Made by a program: the position numbers and the translations under genes | The notes under the pieces: generated by a model | Told to the model about the DNA's origin: nothing | Databases searched by the model: none | What the model saw: only the letters and a program-made list of their open reading frames with translations | Source of the DNA: Secundilactobacillus folii | GTDB lineage: Bacteria; Bacillota; Bacilli; Lactobacillales; Lactobacillaceae | Direction: 5' to 3' | NCBI RefSeq assembly: GCF_009720675.1 | Contig: NZ_WNJO01000011.1 | Coordinates: 1 to 64,000, forward strand | DNA length: 64,000 nt | Shown here: positions 59,296 through 64,000 of the stretch, in pieces | How positions within the stretch are numbered: the stretch's first letter is position 1 | Layout of the letters: each line of letters begins with the position of its first letter

Positions 59296-59817
59296 CTAAA
59301 CAACGTCACGGCCTTGCAGCACACTGATATGAGCCAAAATGGCATCCACCACTTGTGCAGGCGTCAGGTCGTCCGTTTCGATTTCAATGTCGCTAACGTC
59401 ATGATACCGCGAATCACGTTTAGATTTAAGCCCAATTAAGCCGTTTAAACCTAACTCCTTCACTAGGGGTCGCTGATTGTCGTCAGCTAGGCGTGCTAGA
59501 ATTGTTTCTGGCTTAACGTTCAGCAAGATCACCGGTACTTCACTGTCACGCAAGAGGTCATAATTAGCAGGCTGAATTGGCGTCCCACCGCCCGTCGACA
59601 GGATCCCCGCCGTGTTCAGTGCCTCCTTCAAAACATCGTGTTCCAACTTGCGAAATGCTGCTTCACCGCTATCGTCAAAAATTTGCTGAATGGTTTTTCC
59701 TGCCCGTTCAACGATCACGTCGTCTAGATCACGATGCTCAGTATGTAATCGTTCGGCCAGCAGTTGACCAACAGTGGTCTTACCACTGCCCATGAATCCG
59801 ACTAATATCGCTTTCAT
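59296..59817 (-). CDS. aroK: Shikimate kinase
   Basis: 173 residues. It phosphorylates shikimate with ATP. Walker A GFMGSGKTTVGQ at 7-18, the shikimate-binding DLDDVIVERAGKTIQQIF near 31-48, and STGGGTPI near 76-83 are visible, followed by the lid DDNQRPLV near 112. It follows tyrA by 27 bases within the aro operon. Confidence 0.95.
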   Translation of the reverse strand: MKAILVGFMGSGKTTVGQLLAERLHTEHRDLDDVIVERAGKTIQQIFDDSGEAAFRKLEHDVLKEALNTAGILSTGGGTPIQPANYDLLRDSEVPVILLNVKPETILARLADDNQRPLVKELGLNGLIGLKSKRDSRYHDVSDIEIETDDLTPAQVVDAILAHISVLQGRDVV

Positions 59818-59844: not shown

Positions 59845-60714
59845 TTACTTTCCCCTCGAGTCATCGTGATCTAATTGTTCACGAATTGCTTTAGCGCGTT
59901 CAAAAAAGTGGCGGATCTGATCAGCATCTCGAGACTTAATAGCGGCTTGAATCAGTTTCAACTGGTCAATATAGGTCGTCAGTTGATCACTGATGACGTC
60001 CGCATTACTCAGCATAATGGCCGTCCACATTCTTGGGTCAGACGCTGCAATTCGGGTCGTACTTTTAAAGCCACCGGCAGCGGCACTCAAACCGACTGGA
60101 TCATGACGTAATTGCTGTGCAGCTGTATTTACCAAGTTAGCAGCCAGCACGTGTGGAACGTGACTGATTGAACTGACCAACGCATCGTGTTCAGCCGCTG
60201 AAACGGTGGTCCAGCGTAAATCAGCGGTAGCTAGCAGCGCTTGAAACGACTTTGTTTGGGCCGTCGTCTGGGTACCGTTCACTAGGAAGTAAGTCGCGTG
60301 GTCAAATAGATGCTTACGTCCGGCGTGTGCCCCAGTCTGGTGGGAACCGGCCATGGGATGACCGCCCATAAATGCAATTTGCCGGTTCTCCAAGTCCTTC
60401 GCTGCAGCCATCACCTGTGTTTTAGAACTACCAACATCGGTGACCAGTACGTTGGGCTTCAATAAAACGTTCGCTAATTGCTTTAGTTGCTTAATAATTA
60501 CTGAAACGGGACCAGCAAGAAGAATGATATCAGCTCGATTGGCTGCATCTAACAGCGTCACGCGTTCATCAATAATTCCCTGGTCCAGCAGAAACTGGGC
60601 TGTATCGTCGTTTGGATCATCACCAAGAAGGGTCAACTCGGCAGCGCTTTGTTTCATCACGCGTGCCATTGAGCTACCAATCAAGCCCAAACCGCTGATC
60701 AATATCGTTGTCAT
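59845..60714 (-). CDS. tyrA: Prephenate dehydrogenase
   Basis: 289 residues from the ATG at 60714, with GAGGTG 6 bases upstream. It oxidatively decarboxylates prephenate to 4-hydroxyphenylpyruvate for tyrosine. NAD-binding ISGLGLIGSSMARVM at 6-20, the catalytic His region MGGHPMAGSHQTGAHAGRKHLFD near 120-142, and SHVPHVLAANLV near 185. No C-terminal ACT domain, so it lacks the usual tyrosine-feedback module. It sits 10 bases behind aroA in the operon. Confidence 0.95.
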   Translation of the reverse strand: MTTILISGLGLIGSSMARVMKQSAAELTLLGDDPNDDTAQFLLDQGIIDERVTLLDAANRADIILLAGPVSVIIKQLKQLANVLLKPNVLVTDVGSSKTQVMAAAKDLENRQIAFMGGHPMAGSHQTGAHAGRKHLFDHATYFLVNGTQTTAQTKSFQALLATADLRWTTVSAAEHDALVSSISHVPHVLAANLVNTAAQQLRHDPVGLSAAAGGFKSTTRIAASDPRMWTAIMLSNADVISDQLTTYIDQLKLIQAAIKSRDADQIRHFFERAKAIREQLDHDDSRGK

Positions 60715-60724
60715 CCCACTCACC

Positions 60725-62014
60725 TCACTGCAGTAATTTGTCTAGGTCATCAAAGAATTCTGGGTAGGAGATGCGGACGCTGTCAGCACCCTTTAACTTT
60801 AGCGGAGATTGCACTAGCAGCGCCGCAATACTTAAGACCATACCGATTCGATGATCGTCGTGTGCGTCTAACACGGGATCTTCTACGTGCCACGGTTGAC
60901 GGCCATCAATGATAAAGCCGTCTGGTTGCTCCTCAATAGCAATGCCAAGCTTTTTGAATTCCGTCACAATGGCACTGATCCGATCCGTTTCCTTGACCCG
61001 CAGTTCTTCCGCGCCTGAAATGTGACTGACGCCATCAGCTTTAGCTGCCAGCAGCGCCACTAATGGCAGTTCATCAATCACTGCTGGAATCTGTGCTTTA
61101 CCAATATCGATTGGTTTTAAACGAGCCGGTTGAATCGTCAGATCGCCAATCGGTTCACCCGTCGTCGGTTCCGTTTGAATACTGATAGCACCGCCCATTT
61201 CACGTAAGATATTCAACAGCCCCGTCCGTGTCTCATTGAGCCCAACGTCTTTTAAAGTGACTTGAGAACCGGGTACAAGACTGGCCGCCGTCATGAAAAA
61301 TGCCGCTGAGGACATATCACCGGGAATCGTCATGGCTTGCCCCTTCAAGTGGGGTTGCGGCTGCACAGTGATCGTTACACCGTCAGCAGCAGTCGTGAGC
61401 TCACCGCCAAACGCCCGCAGCATCCGTTCAGTGTGGTCGCGTGTCGGCTGTATTTCCACTAACGTACTTGGGTGTCGCGCCTGTAGTGCGGCAAGAATCA
61501 GGGCACTTTTGACTTGGGCGCTAGCGACCTTCAGATGATAATTGACTGCTTGAAGCGGCTTACCACTGATTGTGACCGGTAAATGGCCATCCGTCGTCGT
61601 GATCTCAGCTCCCATTTGTGCCAGAGGTTCGCTGACTCTGCGCATCGGCCGTTTTGACAGCGACGCATCACCAATCAGCGTTGAACTAAAGTTTTGCCCG
61701 GCCAGCAAGCCCATAATCAGGCGCGTTGTGGTGCCAGAATTACCCATATCAAGAGCTTTGCTGCTAGCCTTTAAGCCGTGTAACCCAACGCCATGGACCG
61801 TGACCGTTGTTCCTGTCCGTTCAATGGGCACACCGAGTTGCTGGAAGGCCGCCAACGTCGACAAACAGTCGGCTGAGGTCAGAAAATGAGTCAGCGTAGT
61901 TATGCCCTCACTGATTGCGCCGAGCATAATACCGCGATGAGAAATACTTTTATCACCGGGGACTACAAGTTCACCGTGTAATCCGCCTGCTGGTTTACCC
62001 TTTAAAGCTCTCAT
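60725..62014 (-). CDS. aroA: 3-phosphoshikimate 1-carboxyvinyltransferase (EPSP synthase)
   Basis: 429 residues. It joins phosphoenolpyruvate to shikimate-3-phosphate. Signatures are PGDKSISHRGIMLGAISEG near 18-36, the PEP-binding LDMGNSGTTTRLIMGLLAGQ near 88-107, and GAEELRVKETDRISAI near 330. The block MGNSGTTTR has the class II-like form common in Firmicutes. AGGAG before the ATG; 15 bases after aroC. Confidence 0.97.
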   Translation of the reverse strand: MRALKGKPAGGLHGELVVPGDKSISHRGIMLGAISEGITTLTHFLTSADCLSTLAAFQQLGVPIERTGTTVTVHGVGLHGLKASSKALDMGNSGTTTRLIMGLLAGQNFSSTLIGDASLSKRPMRRVSEPLAQMGAEITTTDGHLPVTISGKPLQAVNYHLKVASAQVKSALILAALQARHPSTLVEIQPTRDHTERMLRAFGGELTTAADGVTITVQPQPHLKGQAMTIPGDMSSAAFFMTAASLVPGSQVTLKDVGLNETRTGLLNILREMGGAISIQTEPTTGEPIGDLTIQPARLKPIDIGKAQIPAVIDELPLVALLAAKADGVSHISGAEELRVKETDRISAIVTEFKKLGIAIEEQPDGFIIDGRQPWHVEDPVLDAHDDHRIGMVLSIAALLVQSPLKLKGADSVRISYPEFFDDLDKLLQ

Positions 62015-62029
62015 GTATTTGCCTCACTC

Positions 62030-63196
62030 CTAATAGTTTTTAAACGCTTCTCGATAATCTTTTAACTGGGCTAATAACCGCTTCATGTTACTGCCATCAA
62101 ACGTGTCGGTGATGGCCTTTGCCAGCTCGATAGCAACCACACTTTCGATCACGATCGAAGCCGGCACGATGGCGGTGGTGTCAGACCGCTCAACACTGGC
62201 CTTCTTAACTTCTTTAGTTTGAATGTCAACACTTTGTAACGGCTTGTAGAGCGTCGGAATTGGCTTCATAGCCGCTTTAACAATAATTGGCATACCATTA
62301 GTCATCCCACCTTCAAAACCGCCTAGATGGTCAGAATTGCGGGTAAATCCCGTTTGTGCGTCCCAGTCGATTTCATCCATAACCTGACTGCCAAAACTGG
62401 TTGCCGCCTTGAAGCCGTCACCAATCTCAACACCCTTCATCGCGTTGACACCCATTACCGCTGCAGCCAGTTTTGCGTCCAACTTGGTATCCCAGCTAAT
62501 GTAACTGCCCAAGCCGGCGGGAACGTTAGTAGCTACCACGCGAATAATACCGCCCAGCGTGTCGCCATCCTTCTTAGTCTTGTCGATCAGCGCGTGGATC
62601 TGGTCGACTTTAGCGGGTTCCACGATTCGTAAATCATTTTGGGTGACCACCTGGTCGATTTTAGCCACATTCAGTGGTGCTTGATCATCAGCTTGAATGG
62701 CACCAACTTGCTGCACATAACCCACAATATCGATTCCCAGTTGCTGGAGGAACTGCTTTGAGATCGCACCGATCGCCACTCTCATGGCCGTTTCTCGGGC
62801 ACTGGAACGCTCGAGGACGTTACGGAGATCCCGATGGTTGTATTTCATTCCTCCTACCAGATCGGCATGGCCTGGACGAGGCCGTTCAACGGTTCTCAGC
62901 GAGTTTTCGGGCGTTGGCGCCGCTGTTGGATCCATGATCTGGCTCCAGTGCGCATGGTCACGGTTATTCACCACCAGTGCGATGGGCGATCCCAACGTCT
63001 TTTTGTGACGAACACCGCCAACAATATTGACCACGTCATGTTCAATTTTCTGACGGCTACCACGGCCATACCCGCCTTGCCGAGCTGCTAACTGAGCGTT
63101 AATAGCGTCAATATCTAAGGTCAATCCGGCGGGTAATCCCTCGATAATGCCGGTCAACTGTGGTCCGTGTGATTCTCCTGCAGTTAAGTAATTCAT
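62030..63196 (-). CDS. aroC: Chorismate synthase
   Basis: 388 residues from the ATG at 63196; another ATG two codons earlier is too close to the ribosome site GAGAGGA. It converts EPSP to chorismate with reduced FMN. The three family signatures are visible: GESHGPQLTGIIEGLPAG at the start, GHADLVGGMKYNHRDLRNVLERSSARETAMRVA-type block near 105-135, and GFEGGMTNGMPI and ERSDTTAIVPASIVIE toward the end. Second gene of the aro operon. Confidence 0.97.
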   Translation of the reverse strand: MNYLTAGESHGPQLTGIIEGLPAGLTLDIDAINAQLAARQGGYGRGSRQKIEHDVVNIVGGVRHKKTLGSPIALVVNNRDHAHWSQIMDPTAAPTPENSLRTVERPRPGHADLVGGMKYNHRDLRNVLERSSARETAMRVAIGAISKQFLQQLGIDIVGYVQQVGAIQADDQAPLNVAKIDQVVTQNDLRIVEPAKVDQIHALIDKTKKDGDTLGGIIRVVATNVPAGLGSYISWDTKLDAKLAAAVMGVNAMKGVEIGDGFKAATSFGSQVMDEIDWDAQTGFTRNSDHLGGFEGGMTNGMPIIVKAAMKPIPTLYKPLQSVDIQTKEVKKASVERSDTTAIVPASIVIESVVAIELAKAITDTFDGSNMKRLLAQLKDYREAFKNY

Positions 63197-63234
63197 TGTC
63201 ATATTCCTCTCTCAAGTTAGTGGTGAACTGCGAT

Positions 63235-63558
63235 TTAGTGGTTCGAATCGGTATTGGTTAGATGAGTCTGATAATCCCGGGAATTCTTCATGATGGTTTC
63301 AAAAATCTGGCGCATGTAAACGTGAGTCTCTGGATTAGGATCCTTATTAGTAACGCGGTCCAGTACCTGATCTTCACGTCCTTGATCCATAACGGGCAAG
63401 TCGGCAGACTGCTTAGCCTCGTTAACCTTTGTGACTGCGTCAAACCGCTGGGCTAATAGCTTCACGATCTGATCATCAATTTGATTGATCTGCTGACGGG
63501 CGGCTGCCAGTTCATTGGGTCGCCACGCGCCTGATGCATTATCCTTTGTTTCCATCAT
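63235..63558 (-). CDS. AroQ-type chorismate mutase
   Basis: 107 residues from the ATG at 63558, with AAGGAG upstream. A single-domain, all-helical AroQ-type mutase that converts chorismate to prephenate. Family residues are LAAARQQINQIDDQIVKLLAQRFDAVTKVNEAK (including the substrate-binding Arg and Lys) and DQGREDQVLDRV. It lacks a fused DAHP synthase or prephenate dehydratase. First structural gene after the attenuator leader, so both tyrosine and phenylalanine branches are under the same leader control. Confidence 0.93.
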   Translation of the reverse strand: MMETKDNASGAWRPNELAAARQQINQIDDQIVKLLAQRFDAVTKVNEAKQSADLPVMDQGREDQVLDRVTNKDPNPETHVYMRQIFETIMKNSRDYQTHLTNTDSNH

Positions 63559-63584
63559 TATGATCACTCCTTATTTTAAGTACG

Positions 63585-63613
63585 AAAAAAGCCAGCTAGA
63601 CGATCTAGCTGGC
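63585..63613 (-). terminator. Attenuator terminator of the aro leader
   Basis: On the minus strand GCCAGCTAGA-TCG-TCTAGCTGGC (10-bp perfect stem) is followed by TTTTTT, about 27 bases before the chorismate mutase start. It is too near the gene to serve an upstream unit and fits a regulated terminator. Confidence 0.85.
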
Positions 63614-63644
63614 TCTCATTTGACCCTTTACGGCATCAATAACG

Positions 63645-63674
63645 GTCCAGCTAGGACTTTCACGTCTAGCTGGC
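63645..63674 (-). promoter_or_regulatory. Alternative (anti)terminator stem region of the aro leader
   Basis: Minus-strand segments GCCAGCTAGAC (63674-63664) and TCCTAGCTGG (63656-63647) pair with each other. The second can instead pair with GCCAGCTAGA of the downstream terminator (63613-63604), blocking it. A further stem GCGTCCGCA ... TGCGGACGC (about 63743-63719) begins at the leader stop codon and also contains AGCTAG. Confidence 0.7.
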
Positions 63675-63743
63675 ACGACAAATTGACGGCATGCTTTAGA
63701 CGCGAACGCGAGTGTGCTTGCGTCCGCATTCTAGCTGCGGACG

Positions 63744-63800
63744 CTAACTAAAGTAATAGCCGTTCCAATACGCATTAGCCTGTGTCAATTTTGTCGTCAT
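63744..63800 (-). CDS. Aromatic-residue leader peptide of the aro operon (18 aa)
   Basis: The frame MTTKLTQANAYWNGYYFS starts at ATG 63800 with AAGGGA about 10 bases upstream and ends at TAG 63744. Five of its last eight residues are Tyr, Trp, Tyr, Tyr and Phe, precisely the amino acids whose pathway the operon serves. Stalling of a ribosome at these codons would free the downstream segments to refold and prevent termination at 63585. The peptide likely has no function beyond translation. Confidence 0.8.
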   Translation of the reverse strand: MTTKLTQANAYWNGYYFS

Positions 63801-63835
63801 CGTGATTGGTTCCCTTCTCGATTTGAATTGCTCTC

Positions 63836-63864
63836 ATTAAAACATATTGAGAATTATTCGTCAA
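63836..63864 (-). promoter_or_regulatory. Promoter of the aro operon
   Basis: On the minus strand TTGACG (63864-63859), a 17-base spacer and TTTAAT (63841-63836). The predicted start is near 63829, giving a leader RNA of about 245 nt to the terminator. Confidence 0.75.
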
Positions 63865-64000
63865 TACTAATTTTCCCTTAATTCATTGATTTGCTAAATA
63901 CAGTGCCAATAATCTGGCAACACTTTTTCATGATTTAGTTCACAAAAGCGTGTTTCACCATATAGCTGCCGGCGAACGGTTCCAAAAACAAACTAAACCA

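Follow-up and report, generated by a model that had tools for sequence, protein, structure and literature searches.

The window, a stretch of 64,000 nucleotides from Secundilactobacillus folii, holds on its minus strand an aro operon that begins with a chorismate mutase gene (CM_2; 63235-63558) and continues with aroC (chorismate synthase; 62030-63202), aroA (EPSP synthase; 60725-62014), tyrA (prephenate dehydrogenase; 59845-60723) and aroK (shikimate kinase; 59296-59817). Upstream of the first gene and on the same strand lies a leader (63864-63585) with a predicted promoter at 63836-63864, composed of the -35 element TTGACG (63864-63859), a 17-nt spacer and the extended -10 element TG-T-TTTAAT (63844-63836); a similar promoter, TTGAC...TTTAAT, is found in relatives of this leader. 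The Shine-Dalgarno motif AAGGGA (63811-63816), which has a purine-rich counterpart in the relatives, precedes a leader ORF MTTKLTQANAYWNGYYFS of 18 codons (63744-63800 with its TAG stop) that is recognised from the sequence and from the relatives. The encoded peptide ends in AYWNGYYFS, and the putative sensor codons are TAT TGG (AAC GGC) TAT TAC TTT; the nearest relatives have a Tyr codon (TAC) in place of AAC.

About 160 nt of RNA separate this ORF from the end of the terminator, and alignment and covariation divide them into seven segments, all on the minus strand. Segment 1 GCGTCCGCA (63736-63744) runs from the G of the stop codon onward and pairs with 2, segment 2 TGCGGACGC (63720-63728) pairs with 1 or 3, segment 3 GCGTTCGCGTCTA (63697-63709) with 2 or 4, segment 4 GCCAGCTAGACGTGA (63660-63674) with 3 or 5, and segment 5 TCCTAGCTGG (63647-63656) with 4 or 6. 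Segment 6 GCCAGCTAGA (63604-63613) pairs either with 5, as an antiterminator, or with segment 7 TCTAGCTGGC, which together with a run of six T (63590-63585) occupies 63585-63600 and forms an intrinsic terminator with 6. Comparison between leaders adds two short elements: segment 0, ACGGC within the leader ORF (63759-63763, including the Gly codon GGC), and its partner 3b, GCCGT (63686-63690). The first-pass annotation of this DNA had listed the promoter, ribosome site, frame, stem at the stop codon, four repeats and terminator, and all of these are present at the right coordinates; the T run had been described as directly preceding the gene, but 26 nt, holding the AAGGAG of chorismate mutase itself, lie between it and the ATG (63558). 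Segments 1 to 3 as part of a relay, the in-frame segment 0 and its partner 3b were absent from that annotation.

Among 54 loci that were retrieved by aroC, 39 have, like the window, a leader of this kind, with a predicted ribosome site and a short frame carrying codons for the regulated amino acids; it stands before a chorismate mutase or an MFS gene (locus and genome numbers, L and G, are our own). Its holders belong to Secundilactobacillus, Lentilactobacillus, Levilactobacillus and Lactiplantibacillus, including L. plantarum, together with one other Lactobacillaceae assembly and one Fructobacillus. All parts of the leader also occur in L070, a relative of the L. plantarum laboratory strain. 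The remaining 15 loci have no leader in the stretch that was read (8 Fructobacillus, 5 Lactococcus, Lactobacillus sp. Sy-1, and L065, whose stretch ends upstream of aroC), and in L183, L184, L134 and L182, on contigs equal in length to those of L054, L059, L060 and L068, the leader precedes aroE instead. Across the orthologous leaders the frame, its length, the aromatic codons and the distance from codon to stop are kept, and third positions vary partly; the aromatic-rich frame predicted for orthologues is thus borne out, as are the covarying stems. Many leaders precede an MFS gene, which can be a fusion, for instance in L130, where the protein consists of MFS_1 and a C-terminal chorismate mutase domain.

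The covariance model built from alignment A1 found matches in 259 of 397 Lactobacillaceae genomes at E <= 0.01, of which the weakest are not trusted. The genome of the window has one full copy of the leader, and its second match (E 0.009) falls on the palindrome of the terminator, read from the opposite strand, hence the matches near E 0.01 in this tally are not all real. At E <= 0.0001 the model matched 82 of 395 Lactobacillales genomes (30 of them Lactobacillaceae), and among genomes of other Bacillota only 2 of 198, both borderline. Four of the 40 follow-up loci (L250 and L252-L254) have no leader frame and look false, and a plasmid search with one locus gave no match.

In the 39 aligned leaders of A1 (39 of 40 rows, the near-duplicate L033 being left out), segments 2 to 6 can each pair with either neighbour, which results in two mutually exclusive registers, register A with helices 1:2, 3:4 and 5:6 and register B with helices 2:3, 4:5 and 6:7. 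Covariation figures for this and the following two alignments are all inflated by relatedness: in A1 93.9% of cells are paired in register A (both-side changes in 9 pairs, 25 cells) and 95.6% in register B (11 pairs, 39 cells), pairing falls to 21-47% when the partners are slid, and the level of both-side changes, in cells or in pairs, was reached by 0 of 500 shuffles. Alignment A2, with 98 distinct leaders overlapping A1, was gathered with a search model that held register B only, and register A, absent from that model, is nevertheless paired in 92.4% of cells (145 both-side cells), against 96.4% for register B (199). In A5, a model-free alignment of 38 divergent leaders (38 of 41 rows; L145, L155 and L245 dropped), the values are 91.9% (88 both-side cells) and 88.4% (106), respectively. 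The plain count of both-side pairs in register A is matched by 32 of 500 shuffles in A2 and by 18 of 500 in A5, therefore it is the cell counts that carry weight there. Over 36 distinct Phe-type leaders that had not been used for training, pairing amounts to 98.7, 90.7 and 93.9% in the three helices of register A and to 99.7, 98.2 and 98.3% in those of register B. The terminator 6:7 and the antiterminator 5:6 exclude each other, and both covary in A1, A2 and A5. Conserved frame and covarying exclusive helices hence support the original proposal of translation-dependent transcription attenuation of an aro operon in a Gram-positive bacterium.

We therefore suggest, with a probability of roughly two in three, that the leader is a translation-dependent transcription attenuator built from a relay of mutually exclusive helices and the in-frame helix 0:3b, and read through exchangeable sensor codons. 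Counted from the first base after the stop, the last Tyr codon begins at -12, that for Phe at -9 and the stop at -3; a ribosome shields about 11 nt beyond the first base of its A-site codon. If charged tRNA-Tyr (or -Phe) runs short, the ribosome would stall on a sensor codon and cover segment 0 wholly or partly, leaving segment 1 free; 0:3b would then be blocked, 1:2 would stand, 3 would take 4 and 5 would take 6, so that 6:7 is blocked and the operon is read. With ample amino acid the ribosome at the stop would cover segment 1, and 2:3, 4:5 and 6:7 would form, leading to termination. After release, or without translation, 0:3b would keep 3 from 4, because 3:4 would cross it, and 4:5 and 6:7 would again terminate transcription. 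If pairing is first come, first served, read-through would be expected in the stalled state only. The sensor would be a cassette, with other members carrying Phe, Trp or Ile/Leu/Val codons.

The same seven-segment relay may also operate with a non-functional 0:3b, in which case an untranslated leader would read through (1:2, 3:4, 5:6) and termination would require a ribosome at the stop. We regard this as unlikely, although it accounts for the conservation of both registers: seven is an odd number, hence covering segment 1 sets the terminator register. It is also consistent with the core of 0:3b in the window leader, which has five pairs only, and with the antiterminator 5:6 that the ribosome-free window leader shows in barrier-limited folding (see below). 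However, a conserved codon of the frame other than the sensors (GGC for Gly in the window; AGC for Ser, GAC for Asp or AAC for Asn in other leaders) sits in segment 0, which is complementary to 3b between segments 3 and 4, and cognate segments 0 and 3b bind far better than swapped ones (-10.93 vs -7.92 kcal/mol; 147 distinct pairs), where 5000 permutations, which ignore relatedness, have a standard deviation of 0.19 and a lowest value of -8.64. Controls from the same leaders also speak against a non-functional helix, as segment 0 with the spacer between 5 and 6 (-5.7 kcal/mol) and the upstream coding part with 3b (-6.2) bind more weakly than the cognate pair (-11.1). Moreover, the codon and its partner change together (AGC/GCT 49, GGC/GTC 50, GGC/GCC 22, GAC/GTC 11 and AAC/GTT 4), in a table that holds 156 of 173 leaders and admits only paired triplets, so that its value lies in the association. 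These 173 leaders are what is left of the 207 rows of alignments A2 to A4 after removal of duplicates, of one short match and of rows in which no frame was detected. Only 39% of the segment 0s have their cognate 3b among the best tenth of all 3b segments, and a scan of the aligned leaders for conserved helices did not reveal 0:3b, for which gaps in the linker columns are the probable cause. Either 1:2 or 2:3 can lie within the helix, but 3:4 is crossed by it. A relay without segment 0 and with read-through as its default had been our working model, and was dropped after leaders of other families showed the in-frame pairing.

Folding with competing structures had been proposed as a check. Since equilibrium folding gave no clear average switch, with 5:6 favoured over 4:5 in 27% of leaders for a ribosome stalled at -18, 21% at -12, 20% without ribosome and 16% with the ribosome at the stop, we added a barrier-limited run, a crude one with a fixed ribosome mask, over the 173 leaders in these four ribosome states. 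In this run the terminator formed in 128 leaders with the ribosome at the stop, 122 without ribosome, 112 with the stall at -12 and 98 with the stall at -18, and the antiterminator in 22, 24, 37 and 51, respectively. Paired over the leaders, the terminator is lost in 35 and gained in 5 when the -18 stall is compared with the stop, whereas the comparison of the -12 stall with no ribosome (22 lost, 12 gained; p 0.12) is not significant. The window leader shows the antiterminator 5:6 in all four states of the barrier-limited run; at equilibrium only its -18 stall differs, with 3:4 reaching 5.2 pairs and 5:6 reaching 6.6 (vs 4.7), and the -12 stall is unchanged. As the barrier-limited direction fits over the 173 leaders but not in the window leader alone, folding supports the switch modestly over all leaders and is ambiguous for the window leader, and the polarity of the mechanism is one that we infer.

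The sensor codons were tallied over distinct last ten residues of the leader peptides at 257 loci. Before chorismate and Tyr genes (67 distinct ends) Tyr occurs in 67, Phe in 66 and Trp in 16, or in 66, 65 and 15 of 66 if the wrong-frame pick L089, which holds all three residues, is left out. Trp is one of the five aromatic codons of the window leader, and the mix of codons had been taken to sense all three end products; in the sequences compared the Tyr and Phe codons are conserved, and Trp is an occasional addition (16 of 67 ends), its sensing being rejected as a conserved feature. The eight distinct ends before a prephenate-dehydratase-like gene all have Phe and none has Tyr. Before TrpX-type ABC transporters, Phe is found in 8 and Tyr in 2 of 9 distinct ends in Lactobacillaceae, and Tyr in 39, Phe in 44 and Trp in 3 of 47 in other families. 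Only Ile, Leu and Val codons occur in the four distinct ends before acetolactate synthase or liv-type ABC transporters; leaders with these codons and the same architecture are seen at L230, L233, L235 and L236. Tyr in 67 of 67 chorismate/Tyr ends against 2 of 17 ends before prephenate-dehydratase-like and Lactobacillaceae TrpX genes gives a Fisher p of 9e-15, with relatedness ignored. Codon identity hence appears to follow the pathway controlled, as in ribosome-mediated attenuation, and the occurrence of one RNA with other codons before other amino-acid genes is the best argument for codon sensing.

Several choices define this tally. L186 (no frame) and L313 and L321 (no frame or no gene label) were excluded, as were ten of the 40 loci (L225, L242, L244, L247, L248, L250, L252, L253, L254 and L258); these include the chorismate mutase-aroC locus L242 and the TrpX loci L247 and L248, which have Tyr codons, so that dropping those three does not favour the reading of codons by gene. 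The wrong-frame picks L089 and L291 were kept. Gene labels were assigned by hand for L235 and L236 (liv-type) and for most of the 30 labels in the 40-locus set, and the name TrpX is used for resemblance to a TrpX-type protein, which itself reaches 287 bits with the NCBIfam TrpX model and thus stays below the cut-off of 390.

The codons may also say something about the genes behind the leaders. The TrpX transporters of Lactobacillaceae (L144, L152-L154 and L197-L217) mostly have Phe-only leaders (FAFSFFFR), hinting at transport of phenylalanine rather than tryptophan. The genes behind the Trp-type leaders (L275, L281 and L287) are TrpX paralogues, and their genomes have a TrpX leader of the Tyr/Phe type as well. 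At L239, L241 and L249, NhaC-type antiporter genes lie behind Tyr-rich leaders and an APC permease gene behind a Phe-rich one, suggesting aromatic substrates. The prephenate-dehydratase-like protein (175 residues, encoded in aro operons, e.g. L070:3683-4207) had no sequence match in Pfam, NCBIfam or PDB. For the L. plantarum copy, whose predicted structure has a mean pLDDT of 78.5 (other models go down to 60), a structure search placed the prephenate dehydratase 3mwb first (TM 0.50), with further prephenate dehydratases below it, together with numerous two-lobed binding proteins that are unrelated; the name is therefore a lead only.

Conservation at the end of the peptide brings in another explanation, in which the nascent peptide would bind free Tyr or Phe and arrest the ribosome on the stop codon, so that with abundant amino acid segment 1 would be covered and transcription would terminate. 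TnaC is an arrest peptide of this type for Trp. Residue -2 is Phe in 60 of the 67 distinct chorismate/Tyr ends, and in the other groups FR or IR is common directly before the stop, in line with this reading. Yet Tyr gives way to Phe, Trp or Ile/Leu/Val when the pathway differs, which is what is expected of codons, and the conserved Gly/Ser/Asp/Asn position is explained by the RNA pairing; hence we consider arrest improbable and prefer codon sensing through the relay. Among the 60 loci derived from the Rfam family RF02863 (see below), 16 have a frame that runs through the usual stop position for three more codons and ends within segment 1 (YFRxCL and alike; L280, L284-L286, L291, L292, L301-L305, L315-L318 and L321), which the relay model would tolerate, yet does not predict.

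The first-pass annotation had compared the four repeats at 63674-63591 to a trp-type switch, pairing either as 1:2 plus 3:4 or as 2:3, on which the ribosome would act directly. These segments do form 4:5, 5:6 and 6:7. However, they start about 70 nt past the stop codon, out of the reach of the ribosome, so that they need the conserved upstream segments; segments 1 to 3, 0 and 3b are conserved and covary, and the four-segment version is thus very unlikely. The enterobacterial trp and phe attenuators are ribosome-mediated, and that of his has more segments. With these the leader shares a short ORF rich in the regulated amino acid, an exclusive terminator and antiterminator, and codons that fit the pathway. 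Unlike them, it has sensor codons upstream of a segment 1 that read-through requires to be free, seven alternating segments plus 0 and 3b, and an unrelated sequence; in the trp type there are four segments and the sensor codons lie within segment 1, whereas here segment 1 begins at the stop and the last Tyr codon lies at -12. The features compared consequently point to ribosome-mediated attenuation, but not to trp-type geometry.

Rfam gave no match at the window leader, and RF02863 (sRNA_2410, Enterococcus sRNA 2410) matched nothing at E <= 1 in 63400-64000 of the window and had no match in 14 Lactobacillaceae loci. In relatives from other families it was found at 14 of 17 loci at E <= 0.5, three of them over the cut-off, and in Lactobacillales in 83 of 148 genomes at E <= 0.01, 37 over the cut-off; its matches overlap with those of the A1 model at several places (G476, G435 and G516). 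Matches of the Trp-type leaders L275, L281 and L287 are weak (E 0.001, 0.003 and 3e-5). Most of the 60 stretches fetched behind RF02863 matches have the same kind of frame and genes, hence in the relatives RF02863 seems to be the same RNA, filed as a small RNA under a name without leader peptide or attenuation. The founding description reports sRNA_2410 of E. faecium as a 195-nt RNA with two transcripts on Northern blots (PMC5593968), which together with the three matches over the cut-off would fit a small RNA acting in trans. A trans-acting role is nevertheless highly improbable for the transcript of the window leader, as the loci examined adjoin amino-acid genes with matching codons and terminator/antiterminator pairing, and a terminated leader also yields a short RNA; sRNA_2410 would then be the terminated leader.

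That the leader is a T-box, a riboswitch or a protein-bound element with an incidental short ORF is scarcely credible, for although T-boxes are abundant in the genome of the window (44 matches, 13 over the cut-off, none on the contig of the window), Rfam finds none at the leader, in agreement with the absence of T-box features noted at first, the weak ones in 14 Lactobacillaceae loci fall elsewhere in those loci, and the ORF codons change with the regulated pathway.

Leader peptides are already reported from Gram-positive bacteria, so the kind itself is not new. A His leader peptide in bacilli (PMC2965389), a Leu-rich leader in Staphylococcus aureus (PMC5794164) and the ilvB uORF in Corynebacterium (PMC10272879; PMC11109978) are likewise reported to control amino-acid genes through translation of a short ORF, but as systems for a single amino acid in other groups. 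The literature searched, mostly without subscription papers, held no description of the relay, of the in-frame helix or of exchangeable codons across one order. The leu-phe_leader of Lactococcus lactis (RF01743) is also named a Leu/Phe leader and comes from the same order, but RF01743 had a weak match in only 1 of 148 Lactobacillales genomes, none over the cut-off and none in the genome of the window.

If the proposed mechanism is true, a widespread, modular, translation-dependent attenuator exists in bacteria known mainly for T-box control, the control of chorismate, Tyr and Phe genes in food lactobacilli is explained, and the reading of an Rfam small-RNA family (RF02863) is corrected. It would also let the sequence hint at what poorly annotated amino-acid transporters carry, such as the TrpX type behind Phe-only codons. 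We think it rather probable that Lactobacillales possess in this way their own codon-programmable attenuator, a part of which stands in Rfam as a small RNA. One scaffold would have its ORF codons switched between Tyr, Phe, Trp and Ile/Leu/Val, with 0:3b detecting an empty frame and making termination the default, and a stalled ribosome would be read by what it frees as well as by what it covers. Such an attenuator would be a counterpart of the T-box (RF00230), as in both one RNA scaffold is re-used and the amino-acid specificity is set by codons. T-boxes, however, read the tRNA directly, and the window leader has no T-box match.
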